A stretch of 64,000 bases of DNA from Cellulophaga sp. L1A9. GTDB lineage: Bacteria > Bacteroidota > Bacteroidia > Flavobacteriales > Flavobacteriaceae. The translations under genes were made by a program, and so were the position numbers. This document shows, piece by piece, positions 9,954 through 14,488 of this stretch (its first letter is position 1; every line of letters begins with the position of its first letter). The DNA lies in contig NZ_CP047027.1 of the NCBI RefSeq assembly GCF_009797025.1, positions 3,224,001-3,288,000 on the forward strand, read 5' to 3'. The notes under the pieces are model-generated. The model saw nothing but the letters and a program-made list of their open reading frames with translations. It was not told where the DNA came from and made no database searches.

Positions 9954-10370
9954 ATGACAAATAGAACATTTACAATGCTTAAGCCAGATGCTGTGCAAAA
10001 CGGACATATTGGTGCTATTCTAGACAAAATTAATGCTGCTGGTTTTAAGATTGTAGCTATGAAATATACGCAATTAAGCAAAAGAGATGCTCAAGCGTTT
10101 TACGCTGTTCATAGTGAGCGTCCTTTTTACGGAGAATTGGTAGACTTTATGTCTAGAGGACCAATCGTTGCTGCTATTTTAGAAAAAGATAATGCTGTTG
10201 AAGACTTTAGAGCTTTAATTGGTGCAACTAACCCAGCTGAGGCTGCAGATGGTACTATCCGTAAAATGTTTGCTACATCTCTTGGTGAGAATGCAGTACA
10301 TGGTTCTGATAGTGATGAGAATGCTGCTTTAGAAGGAGCTTTCCATTTTTCTGGAAGAGAGATTTTCTAA
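9954..10370 (+). CDS. ndk: Nucleoside diphosphate kinase
   Basis: The 138 residues are full length for Ndk. The conserved start ([17 protein letters not shown]), [12 protein letters not shown], and the active-site histidine in ENAVHGSDS are all present. It transfers phosphate from ATP to other NDPs via phosphohistidine and balances the (d)NTP pools. It is a single gene with its own promoter and terminator. The recF-side genes further on are commonly near ndk in flavobacteria, so the intervening NUDIX-helicase pair looks inserted. Confidence 0.97.
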
Positions 10371-10392
10371 GGAAAACAACACAAGATATATG

Positions 10393-10428
10393 AAAGGCTA
10401 CTCAGTGATGAGTGGCCTTTTTTTTATT
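10393..10428 (+). terminator. Terminator after ndk
   Basis: AAAGGCTACTCA and TGAGTGGCCTTT pair with one G-T wobble around a four-base loop, followed by a run of eight T. It also overlaps the end of the helicase gene coming from the other side. Confidence 0.85.
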
Positions 10429-13400
10429 TTAGAACTTCAACAAACTCGCCAATAATTCTCATTTCTTTACTATTGTCTTCATTGATTATTATACTTTTAA
10501 AACTATCGTCATACGAGTTAGGTTTCAATATAATTGAATCATGTTGCCAACCTTCATCTGTAATAGTTTTTTTACTTATATATGTTTTAACGGTAAATGC
10601 AGAATTAAAATCAGGGTCAAAGGCATCTCTATTTTCTATTAGTAAAATTTTCCCAGTGCGAGAACCTGTTACATTTTTTTTGAATAAGCATATTGAGTTA
10701 TTTGGAATAATTTTATTCATTGATTTTCCAATTACTTTACAAGCGAAATAATCATCTGATGCATATCTTTGGGGAACAGATGTTAGTTTATATTCTTTTT
10801 CATCTTGCATTTCACTAAAGCTACCAGCTGCTGCGTAAAAGTTGTATAGAGGAACTGTAAATTCAGATACTTTTTCTTCTACTTTTGATTTTACTGCGGT
10901 TTTAAAATTATTTGGAGCAAGTTTCTCTCTGTTAACGGCTGTTATGTAATTGTATAAGTCGTCTTTTACTGGTTGTTCTAATTGAAACTTAAAGTGGACA
11001 ACTGGTTTTTGAGAATCAGGCATTTCTGCTTGCTGAATAGAATTCTTTATAATCGATACATCTCCCATGAAATAGAAGTCAGTCCCTTCTGCATCTTCTT
11101 TTTTTACGAATAATAATATTCGCTTTGAAGCGACTACATTTTTTATTTCTTGACTTGATAATTTTCTGTTTGACCGGGATTCCCAAGCGAAAACCGATGG
11201 GGAAACGAAGTAGTCATTATACTTTATGGTGTCTTCAATATCATCAGATTTATGATAAGTAACAAAACAAGGAGTAATTTCATTTCTTGTTCTGTAACCA
11301 TAAACAGTACTACTAACATCATTTTCCCAGTTCAATAATCTACAAACATCTTTACGACTATACTTGTTGAAAAGTAATAGTCCATCTCTGTAATTATCTT
11401 TGTTGAAATTTTTATTGAAGGTGTGTATTGAGTAAGTTATAGAATCAAGTAAGAACTCACTAAAAGTAGTGTTTGAAAGTAACTTAACAAATTCATCGTG
11501 AAATTTGAGTTTGTTACTTTCAATAAAGATGATTTTTTCTTCCTTTCGGATAAAGCTGAAATTGATATTTGAAATACAGGATTTTATAGTTTCAGCACTT
11601 GGTTTATATTGATATTTCTCAAATATTAATTCATTTAAATTTGAAATACTTAACTCGTGATTATTTAGTAGTTCCTTTAGGATAATACTTTCTTCAATTC
11701 TTTTTGCGTTGTTAATTTCTTTGGAAAAAAGCTCTAATAATTCAGATAGCTTTTTGTCTAAAGATTTATCAAATGTTTTGTCTACTTTGTTGATGAAATT
11801 AAAGTACGACTTCGAGTATTCAATGAATGAGAAAGGCTCTCTGGCTTCATTGTTTACAAAGTCCATCATCATGGGAATACGTCCAATCCTACTTTTTAAA
11901 TTATTGTAATCTATTTTTAAATCAGATAACAGTTGCATTGTCGCTGAATCAATGGAAGCATAGATTCTTTCTTTAGTGATTTCATCAAAATTAATAGTTG
12001 ATTCTCCTGGAATCATACTACTACCCTCTGAAATTAATTTTCTTATTTTGTCTTTATTAAAGGAGGTGTCCCCATATAAAGCTATTGGAATTAAATAATT
12101 ATTTTTATAGTTGCCAATAAAATCAATGATTGTTAAATAATATTTGTTGTCTGTCTTTCTTAATCCTCGTCCTAATTGCTGTATGAATATTATTGCAGAT
12201 TGGGTTGGGCGAATCATTATGACTTGATTGATTTTTGGTATATCAATTCCTTCATTAAAAATGTCAATAGTAAATATGTAATCTAATTTTATTGTTAAAT
12301 CATCACTTTCTAATAGTTCTATGGCATTTGTTCTTTCCTGTTCTGAACTATCTCCTGTTAAAGCAATTGTTTTGTAGCCTTTTTGATTGAATTTGTCTGA
12401 TAATTCTTTGGCTTCAATTTTTTTAGAACAAAAAATTAGACCTCTTGTTATTCCATTGTCGGAACCATAAAATTCAATTTTAGAAATAATTTTATTGACT
12501 CTTTCGTCTGCTGTTAAAAGTTTGAAATCTGATTCTTTTTCAAGTATTTCATCATTTACTGATAAATCTGTTACACCATAATAATGGAAAGGAATAAGCA
12601 TATCTTCTTCCATTGCCTTATTTAGTCTAATCTCATAAGCTATATTATGGTCAAACAAACTATAAATGTCTTTATCGTCTGTTCTGTCTGGTGTTGCAGT
12701 CATACCAAGAAGAAATCTCGGATTGAAATATTTTATTAATCTAATATATGAATCTGCTCCTGAACGATGAGATTCATCAATAATAATATAATCAAAGAAA
12801 TCTTTTTTAAATTGTTCTAAATGATTTGATTTTGAAATTGTTTGAACAGTTGAAAATACAAAGTCTTTATCTAGTTCTCTTTGTTTTCCTGAGTATAACC
12901 CCATTGTTTTAGACTTACCGAAAATAGTTTTAAAAGTTTCCATTGCTTTTTCAGCAATGTTTAATCGATGTACAACAAATAGCAGTTTTTTAGGATTAAA
13001 AGCTTTGGCATCAAAAGCAGCTAAATAGGTTTTACCTGTTCCGGTTGCAGAAATTATAAGCGCTTTATTGCTTTGTTTTCTTAAGTTTTTTAAATTCTCT
13101 AATGCTTCAGTTTGCATAGAGTTTGGAATTATTTCTAAATTAAATTCTTTAGATAATTCCTCTTCGCTTTTTTTGTAAACTAGTGATTGCTTTTTGTAAA
13201 TCTCTTCATATTTTTTGATGTAAGTTTTATTTACAATTTCACCTATTTCAAAATCATCTTGAAATTCGTTAATCACTTTATCTACTAAGGAGCTTGAGTT
13301 TCTTGCTGAAACCTTCATATTCCACTCTTTATTTGTAGATAATGCGGCTGAAGTTAAATTGCTACTTCCAATAATTAAGTTGTAGTATTTAGAGTGCTTA

Positions 13401-13783
13401 AAAATATAACCTTTTGAATGTGAGTCTTCTTTAGTTATTATTTTTAATTCTATATTTTGAAATTGTAAAAGTCTTTTTAATGCTTCGGGTTGTGTGAAGT
13501 TTAGATATTGAGAAACAAGAATTTTTCCTTTTATACCTTTTTTCTCAAGAGTTTTAAATGTGTTTATTAAAGTAGCTACACCGCTTGTTGTAATAAAAGC
13601 AACAGATATATAAAAGCTTTCGCAGTTTTCTAATTCTTTAATAATAGTAGTTAGAACTTTCTTTCTAGGGATTTTTCGATTGACAAGTAGTTCTGGTTGG
13701 TATAAAGCGTCGGATTCTAAGGATTTATCAATGAACCCAGTTAATAGGCTATCTTTAAAATCATCATTAAATATTTTATCCAT
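10424..13783 (-). CDS. PLD-nuclease / SF2 helicase / DUF3427 / S24 autoprotease fusion (candidate defence protein)
   Basis: The product has 1119 residues from the ATG at 13783; a TTG two codons earlier is possible. An N-terminal PLD-like domain has His122-x-Lys124 and GSSNLT (139-144). The superfamily II helicase has Walker A ATGTGKT (246-252), DESH (336-339), MTATP (361-365) and QQLGRGLR (535-542). A DUF3427 domain follows at about 802-948 (YSRKDVCRLLNW, FVTYHKS, WESRS, ILLFVKK). The C-terminus (about 978-1118) is an S24 peptidase. It has Ser1021 in GKSM, Lys1066 in VKTY, and an AAAG site whose Ala986-Gly987 bond lies 34 residues before the Ser, as in LexA (Gly85/Ser119). There is no HTH domain. 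The gene overlaps the NUDIX gene by eight bases. Inferred: a DNA-translocating nuclease controlled by LexA-like self-cleavage, for phage defence or repair. Confidence 0.88.
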   Translation of the reverse strand: MDKIFNDDFKDSLLTGFIDKSLESDALYQPELLVNRKIPRKKVLTTIIKELENCESFYISVAFITTSGVATLINTFKTLEKKGIKGKILVSQYLNFTQPEALKRLLQFQNIELKIITKEDSHSKGYIFKHSKYYNLIIGSSNLTSAALSTNKEWNMKVSARNSSSLVDKVINEFQDDFEIGEIVNKTYIKKYEEIYKKQSLVYKKSEEELSKEFNLEIIPNSMQTEALENLKNLRKQSNKALIISATGTGKTYLAAFDAKAFNPKKLLFVVHRLNIAEKAMETFKTIFGKSKTMGLYSGKQRELDKDFVFSTVQTISKSNHLEQFKKDFFDYIIIDESHRSGADSYIRLIKYFNPRFLLGMTATPDRTDDKDIYSLFDHNIAYEIRLNKAMEEDMLIPFHYYGVTDLSVNDEILEKESDFKLLTADERVNKIISKIEFYGSDNGITRGLIFCSKKIEAKELSDKFNQKGYKTIALTGDSSEQERTNAIELLESDDLTIKLDYIFTIDIFNEGIDIPKINQVIMIRPTQSAIIFIQQLGRGLRKTDNKYYLTIIDFIGNYKNNYLIPIALYGDTSFNKDKIRKLISEGSSMIPGESTINFDEITKERIYASIDSATMQLLSDLKIDYNNLKSRIGRIPMMMDFVNNEAREPFSFIEYSKSYFNFINKVDKTFDKSLDKKLSELLELFSKEINNAKRIEESIILKELLNNHELSISNLNELIFEKYQYKPSAETIKSCISNINFSFIRKEEKIIFIESNKLKFHDEFVKLLSNTTFSEFLLDSITYSIHTFNKNFNKDNYRDGLLLFNKYSRKDVCRLLNWENDVSSTVYGYRTRNEITPCFVTYHKSDDIEDTIKYNDYFVSPSVFAWESRSNRKLSSQEIKNVVASKRILLFVKKEDAEGTDFYFMGDVSIIKNSIQQAEMPDSQKPVVHFKFQLEQPVKDDLYNYITAVNREKLAPNNFKTAVKSKVEEKVSEFTVPLYNFYAAAGSFSEMQDEKEYKLTSVPQRYASDDYFACKVIGKSMNKIIPNNSICLFKKNVTGSRTGKILLIENRDAFDPDFNSAFTVKTYISKKTITDEGWQHDSIILKPNSYDDSFKSIIINEDNSKEMRIIGEFVEVLK

Positions 13784-14174
13784 TCTCAATTAATCTATTA
13801 ACTATAGGGATATCTGCTGCTGCCCAGTCTAATTTTTTTAAATTTTCTAAAGAGCGCCATTGAGAAGAAATATGTTCATTTAATTGAATTTCACTTTTAT
13901 CAGAAATACATTTAAAAACATGCATTATTAATTTAAAGTCTGGATATTGATGATTAACTGTTAAATATAATTCACCCATTGAGATTGGTGTGAAGTTTAA
14001 TTCTTCTTTTAATTCTCTATACAGTGCATTATTTAATGTTTCCCCATTTTCTACTTTGCCTCCAGGGAATTCAAATTTTTTGGAAATATATGCCAATTTG
14101 TTTTGAGGCCTTTGAACACATAGAATCTTATCTTCAAAATAGATTATTGCAGCAACAACTTCTATCTCTTTCAT
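13776..14174 (-). CDS. NUDIX hydrolase (MutT-like), partner of the nuclease-helicase
   Basis: The 132-residue protein has a NUDIX box at residues 39-61: G-x5-E45-x7-R53-E54-L-x-E57-E58. The usual Gly near the end is Asn60. FEFPGGKVENGE and VVAAIIYFEDKILCVQRP resemble (8-oxo-)dGTP diphosphatases (MutT). It probably hydrolyses a (modified) nucleoside triphosphate or related pyrophosphate. Its end overlaps the start of the helicase gene, so the two are translationally coupled. It starts 17 bases after the DUF721 gene, so it may be read from that operon or from a promoter inside it. NUDIX plus PLD-helicase-DUF3427 suggests that nucleotides and DNA are handled together. Confidence 0.88.
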   Translation of the reverse strand: MKEIEVVAAIIYFEDKILCVQRPQNKLAYISKKFEFPGGKVENGETLNNALYRELKEELNFTPISMGELYLTVNHQYPDFKLIMHVFKCISDKSEIQLNEHISSQWRSLENLKKLDWAAADIPIVNRLIENG

Positions 14175-14191
14175 TTTTTTAAATTTTTAAT

Positions 14192-14488
14192 CTATCGCAA
14201 CACTAACTTCTTAACCACTTCTTTTTTCAACTCTTCATTAAGCATGGTGATAATTTTAGATTTCCCTAGGCTTAATTCTGACCGTAGAACTGAAGAAGAG
14301 AGCGATACAAACAAGGTGTCTCCTCGTAATTCTATGGCCGTTGTGTAGTTATTAACGCCATTCCCCATAAGATTGGTCCAAGCTGCTCTTACATCAACCC
14401 TATCAATGCCTTTTTGGAGCTTGTTGGTGTCAATAAAATCTTGTAAAGCTTCACTTAATGGAATGTTTTCTCTGCGTCTTTTAGCCAT
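14192..14488 (-). CDS. DUF721 (DciA-like) family protein
   Basis: This is a 98-residue cytosolic protein with the compact DUF721 fold (LSEALQDFIDTNKLQKGIDR, AWTNLMGNGVNNYT, LFVSLSSSVLRSELSLGKS). The family includes DciA, which helps load the replicative helicase in bacteria lacking DnaC. Its place near recF fits DNA replication. The ATG overlaps the stop of the lipocalin gene by one base. The DciA role is inferred from family membership only. Confidence 0.8.
   Translation of the reverse strand: MAKRRRENIPLSEALQDFIDTNKLQKGIDRVDVRAAWTNLMGNGVNNYTTAIELRGDTLFVSLSSSVLRSELSLGKSKIITMLNEELKKEVVKKLVLR

Follow-up and report, generated by a model that had tools for sequence, protein, structure and literature searches.

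A SauUSI-type restriction enzyme with a predicted self-cleaving S24 tail, and its NUDIX partner, in Cellulophaga sp. L1A9

A NUDIX gene overlapping a tailed SauUSI-type gene

The window analysed here is the whole stretch of 64,000 nucleotides from Cellulophaga sp. L1A9 (contig NZ_CP047027.1, positions 3,224,001 to 3,288,000), and feature coordinates are those of the window. Flanked by an ndk-like and a DUF721-like gene, it carries two mutually overlapping genes on the minus strand, namely: a NUDIX hydrolase gene (13776..14174, minus strand; 132 amino acids (aa)) and a gene for a SauUSI-type type IV restriction enzyme with a C-terminal S24 tail (10424..13783, minus strand; 1119 aa from its ATG). 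An original prediction, made from the sequence alone, had described such an overlapping pair, and both genes are indeed present on the minus strand. Read from the ATG, the large gene shares 8 nucleotides with the NUDIX gene; an alternative TTG start lies two codons further upstream (10424-13789, 1121 aa). It should be noted that residues of the large protein are numbered here in the TTG form, while the original prediction used the ATG form, which is 2 lower.

The original prediction had assigned PLD nuclease, SF2 helicase, DUF3427 and S24 domains to the large protein and regarded it as a nuclease-helicase. All four domains are present, but the core is that of a known enzyme. Pfam places PLDc_2 at residues 50-178, ResIII at 220-369, Helicase_C at 443-544 and DUF3427 at 688-950. 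The PADLOC type IV restriction model matches residues 5-950 with an E-value (E) of 2.4e-237, and residues 3-952 of the solved SauUSI chain 7CLG (953 aa) align to the same residues 5-950 (E 9e-230). These two matches rule out an unknown nuclease-helicase, and by sequence residues 5-950 are a SauUSI-type, 5-methylcytosine (5mC)-dependent (type IV) restriction enzyme.

In the structural study, SauUSI consists of a dimerising PLD nuclease, an SF2 motor, a helical coupler and an SRA domain that reads 5mC and 5-hydroxymethylcytosine (5hmC) (PMC7913695), and the window's enzyme has the same domain order. Its PLD nuclease domain (13256..13642, minus strand) retains the HxK of the SauUSI motif HxKx4E at residues 124-126, and the Glu of the motif is replaced by Lys, a substitution shared by 105 of the 114 tailed homologues above 1050 aa among those listed. 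The SF2 ATPase/translocase (12158..13132, minus strand) carries SATGTGKT at 247, DESH at 338, TATP at 364 and QQLGRGLR at 537. DUF3427 (10940..11728, minus strand) corresponds, by Pfam and the SauUSI alignment, to part of the coupler and the SRA 5mC-reader. In the SRA pocket, Tyr832, Phe842, Val843, Asp859 and Trp869 match SauUSI Tyr831, Phe841, Ile842, Asp858 and Trp868, respectively, and Met829 of SauUSI is replaced by Tyr830; thus five of the six pocket residues named for SauUSI are retained, if Ile to Val is counted as kept. Since the core is that of a known SauUSI, the target of the large enzyme is very likely 5mC/5hmC DNA, read by the SRA domain within DUF3427 (cf. PMC7913695). SauUSI ends with its SRA domain, so that all residues beyond about 950 are an addition: in the window's enzyme, about 170 residues of linker plus S24 tail.

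The S24 tail and its recurrence on other motors

A variable, low-confidence linker (residues 951-976; 10862..10939, minus strand) separates the SRA domain from the tail, a predicted S24 (LexA-fold) autoprotease (residues 977-1121; 10427..10861, minus strand) in which Pfam recognises Peptidase_S24 at 980-1116 (26.4 bits against a cut-off of 23.3). The predicted self-cleavage bond is Ala988-Gly989 (986-987 in ATG numbering; 10823..10828, minus strand), and the predicted catalytic residues are Ser1023 (Ser1021; 10721..10723, minus strand) and Lys1068 (Lys1066; 10586..10588, minus strand). The AAAG site, the Ser and the Lys had all been read correctly, in ATG numbering, in the original prediction, which also invoked the LexA spacing. 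In LexA, 34 residues separate Gly85 from Ser119, and the Ser-to-Lys spacing is 37. The Gly-to-Ser spacing of the tail is likewise 34, whereas its Ser-to-Lys spacing is 45, a difference that the original prediction passed over.

Structure prediction gives the tail the LexA/lambda-repressor fold, cleavage-site strand included, and of the four closest folds three are those of lambda repressor and LexA in a RecA-bound form. When the single tail sequence is compared with solved structures, no significant match is found (the best, at E 0.39, is an unrelated protein); given this absence, the relationship to LexA is drawn from Pfam, the fold and the motifs. Homologues and fold together rule out a chance S24 match.

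A search with the tail retrieves 780 proteins at E <= 1e-3, and a second search, with the tail of a Schlafen-group-3 (SLFN-g3) helicase described below, retrieves 1397. The best 120 of each were aligned. Among the 120 listed from the first search, the site Ala is found in 120/120, the Gly in 119/120, and the Ser and Lys in 120/120 each; among the 120 listed from the second, all of which contain an SLFN-g3 helicase domain, the corresponding numbers are 120, 117, 120 and 120. In a combined alignment of 280 tails, Ala, Ser and Lys are each present in 280/280 and Gly in 276/280; the site and dyad are thus not freely lost among homologues. These four positions all fall within the 23 of 141 columns that are conserved across three families (probability by random draw 5.6e-4, a guide only, as the 280 rows share ancestry and the same protein can appear more than once, e.g. 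as window, L006 and P0001). The HsdR group of this alignment has three members, among them a contig-edge fragment (L158) assigned by tail likeness alone.

The conservation of further columns indicates that the fold matters beyond the dyad, as would be expected if the tail were a non-proteolytic platform for binding RecA or DNA and its self-cleavage went unused. Such a role is very improbable: the retention of Ala, Ser and Lys in 280/280 tails, after two joins to SauUSI and in two other families, is hard to explain without catalysis. Sequence conservation and the fold model thus support the view that the C-terminal tail is an S24 domain of LexA fold in which the cleavage site and the dyad are complete and conserved, and predict that it cleaves itself.

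The same tail is found on other motors. At a Cytophagaceae locus (L074), a tailless SauUSI gene is followed by a MazG-like gene and then by an SLFN-g3 (DUF2075) helicase with the S24 tail (L074:7919-10455), which also has a GIY-YIG domain just above the cut-off. In a survey of 395 Bacteroidota genomes, the tail profile gives 19 matches: six SauUSI, nine SLFN-g3 (one of them broken), two type I HsdR, one contig-edge fragment and one weak helix-turn-helix (HTH) protein. The SauUSI-type model itself matches in 387 of the 395 genomes at E <= 0.001 because it detects any SF2 helicase; only the nine matches above 700 bits were therefore called SauUSI. The HTH protein aside, the Ala-Gly bond, Ser and Lys are retained in 12/12 non-SauUSI survey tails. 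This count was made with no Ala-Gly pre-filter, whereas in an earlier alignment rows L149-L158 were chosen by the Ala-Gly pattern, which omitted five SLFN tails, and the two HsdR were added by name. The residues preceding the site Gly are mostly AAA in SLFN tails, with VAA or IAA in others, and VAA in HsdR.

The two type I HsdR proteins with C-terminal S24 tails (L147:6025-9567, plus strand; L148:5039-8584, minus strand) both have a VAAG site, the Ser and the Lys, and both genes adjoin an AAA_21 ATPase gene and an HNH gene. The L147 locus also has hsdM and hsdS; in L148, the scan covered the genes for HsdR, the AAA_21 ATPase, the HNH protein and one more ATPase. The broken SLFN-g3-S24 helicase (L157:4461-6979) has a split frame, and its tail reads VTAG. 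A phage origin of the tail was also considered and set aside: a scan of viral contigs with the tail profile found two weak relatives only (L198 and L199; 28% and 26% identity).

The history of the tail was followed in a quickly built tree of 82 SauUSI cores (28 tailed), from which L043, L044 and cores shorter than 850 aa (L075, L090, L101, L105 and L108) were omitted. The distribution of tails on this tree amounts to three changes, which the starred branches enforce. The main tailed clade comprises 25 tailed cores and one tailless member (L046), and its sister is the tailless L057; a second tailed clade has three members (L068, L072 and L081). The tails of this second clade cluster with those of SLFN proteins at a support of 91/86 (not starred), and their likeness to SLFN proteins begins about 16 residues before the S24 domain. 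All SauUSI tails form one group in 0/200 bootstrap trees, though the starred branches alone leave such a grouping possible. By parsimony, the S24 module would thus have joined SauUSI at least twice. As NUDIX-adjacent SauUSI, MazG and SLFN-S24 genes stand in a row at L074, a simple deletion in such an arrangement could be the source of a SauUSI-S24 fusion. The tailless SauUSI within the tailed clade (L046:5001-7820) has MazG and SLFN genes nearby and is likely a natural loss of the tail.

The NUDIX partner, the insertion site and the nucleotide pool

The NUDIX protein matches the PADLOC PDC-S07 model (E 8e-43). Its Nudix box, GX5EX7REUXEE, is intact from residue 39, and 83/83 NUDIX open reading frames that match at E < 1e-25 in the retrieved loci have the box as well (counting duplicates). 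Its closest solved relative is 3GWY (Q5LBB1_BACFN; E 4.4e-38). Q5LBB1_BACFN hydrolyses 5-methyl-deoxycytidine triphosphate (5-methyl-dCTP; 4.8e6 M-1 s-1) and 5-hydroxymethyl-dCTP (4.4e6), and 5-OH-dCTP about 50-fold less well (PMC5158307). By homology, the window's enzyme probably removes 5-methyl- and 5-hydroxymethyl-dCTP, the pool form of the bases that SauUSI attacks.

Linkage was counted at 82 loci, where a NUDIX gene was scored if it shares the strand of the SauUSI core and lies between -20 and +60 base pairs (bp) from it. Duplicates (L043 and L044, of L003 and L004) were dropped, and so were five loci with little sequence upstream, namely L058, L095, L104, L105 and L118, the last with a NUDIX gene at a distance of 168 bp. 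Four tailless loci with less than 700 bp upstream (L064, L069, L080 and L094) were kept because their NUDIX gene is visible. An adjacent NUDIX gene is found at 28/29 tailed and 43/53 tailless SauUSI genes, or 39/49 tailless if those four loci are all removed; the NUDIX linkage seen in the window thus holds in other genomes. In three of the 11 exceptions (L108, L075 and L089) the core starts late or is broken and the NUDIX gene lies further upstream; in L120 the distance is 387 bp, and in L096, L102, L112 and L113 a NUDIX gene is on the opposite strand; no NUDIX gene is found near SauUSI in L107, L114 and L115 (in L114, within the only 801 bp to search). Hosts of NUDIX-adjacent SauUSI include Methanosarcinaceae, Vibrio, Psychrobacter, Prochlorococcus and Bacillota, and the NUDIX gene is also adjacent in three annotated plasmid copies (three of the six plasmid records found were examined). 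In a more distant DUF3427 subfamily it is present at 10/21 loci.

The pair sits at a site bordered by the ndk-like gene (9954..10370, plus strand) and the DUF721-like gene (14192..14488, minus strand), both named from our reading of the sequence and both outside the system. Its G+C content is 28.7%, against 34-36% in the flanks. DUF721 was detected in 27/31 genomes, and the site was counted at 18 loci from the window's genus (its own genome and 16 others) and family (one), nine more distant DUF721 loci (L185-L193) being excluded. NUDIX plus SauUSI-S24 is present at 4/18, a 1046-aa DUF3427 relative without NUDIX (L197:5908-9045) occupies 1/18, and ndk directly adjoins DUF721 at the remaining 13/18. 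NUDIX and SauUSI-S24 are therefore gained and lost as one unit. The DUF721/ndk interval (window 10371-14191; L194-L197) is an insertion hot spot in the genus, holding NUDIX-SauUSI-S24, a different DUF3427 relative, or nothing.

Such joint movement bears on the proposal, made in the original prediction, that one damage-controlled system unites the NUDIX enzyme with the autoprotease nuclease, the NUDIX enzyme acting on nucleotides of the same response. The overlap of the genes, their joint presence in 4/18 insertion-site loci and their joint absence in 13/18 are in its favour. We nevertheless consider it improbable, as the NUDIX gene also accompanies SauUSI without a tail, in Pseudomonadota, Bacillota, Cyanobacteriota and archaea, and its best-characterised relative points to 5-substituted dCTP. 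This linkage without a tail rules out the NUDIX gene as part of an S24 response. The NUDIX gene is a true partner of SauUSI generally, tied to restriction rather than to the S24 tail.

An insertion site that is occupied in some genomes and empty in others implies that entry into new hosts is part of the life of the pair, and would suit a constitutive or timed maturation, in which slow self-cleavage of the tail, with no signal of damage, acts as a delay timer in a new host or as a folding aid. LexA-type domains do self-cleave spontaneously at high pH. We find such maturation quite unlikely in view of the RecA-bound lambda repressor and LexA among the closest folds (three of four), although a shared fold alone is not proof of RecA binding.

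A link to the nucleotide pool is also seen beside the tailed helicases. A MazG-like gene lies directly upstream of the SLFN-g3-S24 helicase at 9/9 surveyed loci (L149-L157), and at L074 as well; we know of no mechanism for this pair. The nearest solved relatives of the L074 MazG-like protein (the one protein compared) are dCTP pyrophosphatase 1 (DCTPP1) and RS21-C6 (E 2e-19). Human DCTPP1 favours dCTP plus its 5-methyl and halogenated derivatives, and mouse RS21-C6 acts hydrolytically on 5-methyl-dCTP (PMC4491611). Two of the three tailed enzyme types thus travel with unrelated nucleotide pyrophosphatases (Nudix and MazG/DCTPP1-like), and as the nearest solved relatives of both act on 5-methyl-dCTP, modified-DNA restriction may be coupled to policing of the modified pool.

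MazG or SLFN genes occur in the flanks of NUDIX-SauUSI at 9/80 genome loci, one of them (L058) by a short SLFN match only. The four-gene order NUDIX - SauUSI - MazG - SLFN-type helicase is seen at L074 (Bacteroidota, with a tailed helicase) and on a Lactiplantibacillus plantarum plasmid (L166). The plasmid helicase is 26% identical to that of L074 (E 2e-36) and, at 580 aa by annotated coordinates, is too short to have the tail.

A possible off-switch within the nuclease

Cleaved LexA ends in 'VAA', and the tag encoded by the host's transfer-messenger RNA is GENNYALAA; the host genome also encodes RecA. With these ends in mind, we propose, at a probability of roughly 0.45, that the pair is a restriction system with an off-switch, in which a RecA-triggered self-cut at Ala988-Gly989 would inactivate the SauUSI enzyme and the NUDIX hydrolase would clean the nucleotide pool. 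By homology, the SRA part of DUF3427 would locate 5mC or 5hmC in incoming DNA, the SF2 motor would translocate and the PLD dimer would shred the DNA. The NUDIX enzyme would destroy 5-methyl- and 5-hydroxymethyl-dCTP from digested DNA or phage, so as to keep modified cytosine out of host DNA, which would otherwise be cut, and out of phage DNA. On meeting a RecA filament, the S24 tail on its flexible linker would cut itself. In the least certain step, the cut core (residues 1-988) would end in ...NFYAAA-COOH, which resembles cleaved LexA and the ssrA tag; a ClpXP-type protease would then degrade it, and the nuclease would be off while the host repairs its DNA. It is this likeness of the AAA terminus that favours an off-switch, which would amount to restriction alleviation built into the enzyme. 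The same S24 module on the SLFN-g3 helicase and HsdR presumably does the same job.

The opposite direction is rather unlikely: the tail would silence the enzyme, by masking the SRA reader or imposing a wrong dimer, and the RecA-triggered cut would free an active SauUSI core when phage attacks or DNA is damaged. Relatives without the tail stop after the SRA domain and seem complete, so the entire enzyme should be contained in residues 1-988. In LexA and UmuD, S24 domains form dimers, and UmuD is a precedent for activation by the same kind of cut. Dimerisation of the tail could compete with the nuclease dimer described for SauUSI (PMC7913695). Set against this, a prior need for a RecA filament would mean late action against entering DNA, and the new AA-COOH end predicts instability. 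In addition, an AlphaFold2 (AF2) model of residues 800-1121 has a predicted template modelling score (pTM) of 0.46 and an unstructured linker (predicted local distance difference test score, pLDDT, <50 at residues 953-974). A fixed SRA-S24 arrangement was rejected on these grounds, which leaves the masking model without support, although a two-domain model of this kind is weak evidence against an on-switch.

Several observations also weigh against the off-switch. The tail profile finds LexA of T. maritima among solved structures only at E 0.87, the remaining 4/280 tails have Ser instead of the site Gly, and L046 shows that the tail can be lost. LexA_DNA_bind gives no match over the cut-off in the host genome (best 22.1 against 23.7 bits, over 31 positions), and one other S24 protein exceeds the threshold, a regulator with an HTH_3 domain that also reads AAAG. 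No classical SOS circuit emerges from these findings, and any control would act directly on the protein. The NUDIX substrate is assigned by homology, and the best NCBIfam models for this protein, MutT- and NudG-like, are all below their cut-offs. Plasmid-induced alleviation of EcoKI works in a lexA1 strain without LexA self-cleavage (PMC11109961), so alleviation as such can do without S24 cleavage. Finally, the off direction is taken from the likeness of three residues, and Ala-Ala-Gly may be no more than a sequence that fits the S24 active site well; as the cut core equals a complete tailless SauUSI, an on-switch fits equally well.

Taken together, we tentatively favour, at just under even odds, a portable RecA-triggered self-cutting module that has been repeatedly added to the C-termini of translocating defence enzymes, with modified-DNA restriction coupled to policing of the modified nucleotide pool. 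Its scope would be Bacteroidota and near kin, on SauUSI at least twice, on the Schlafen-group-3/GIY-YIG helicase and on type I HsdR, in at least one host without a canonical LexA. Restriction enzymes can kill their host when its own DNA looks foreign, and to our knowledge how type IV enzymes avoid self-killing is largely open. If the proposal is true, a self-cleaving switch inside the nuclease, common to three defence motors, would be a general post-translational answer to self-restriction and would place these enzymes, as proteins, under LexA-type control by damage. The predicted removal of 5-methyl/5-hydroxymethyl-dCTP, the pool form of the attacked mark, would in turn be a concrete reason for the near-constant NUDIX-SauUSI pair. 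In the open-licence literature we found no description of the SauUSI-S24 combination, its recurrence on three motors or the 5-methyl-dCTP logic; DUF3427 and S24 were not found together there, and Nudix and SauUSI are co-mentioned only in two mutually unrelated passages of one paper. Each part is of a known kind, and what is new, within that literature, is the combination.

Among known systems, LexA, lambda CI and UmuD resemble the tail in predicted fold, in an Ala-Gly bond 34 residues before the Ser and in a downstream Lys. They differ in that their S24 domain is joined to a DNA-binding domain or a polymerase subunit, whereas that of the window is joined to a nuclease-motor, and LexA differs further in its shorter Ser-to-Lys spacing (37 against 45). 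For the NUDIX protein, the closest known type is that of Q5LBB1_BACFN (3GWY) and E. coli NudG, with which it shares an intact Nudix box and from which its substrate is assigned; the PADLOC PDC-S07 entry carries no description, whereas the window's gene matching it can be tied to SauUSI and, by homology, to 5-substituted dCTP. The nearest functional parallel is the alleviation of type I restriction. ClpXP degradation of HsdR is the known relief of type IA/IB restriction after damage (PMC12707154), and the logic is the same as that proposed here, in that the nuclease subunit is destroyed when host DNA is at risk (PMC12707154; PMC11109961). In type I systems, ClpX acts on the assembled, translocation-competent complex (PMC12707154), whereas in SauUSI-S24 the enzyme would cut itself.

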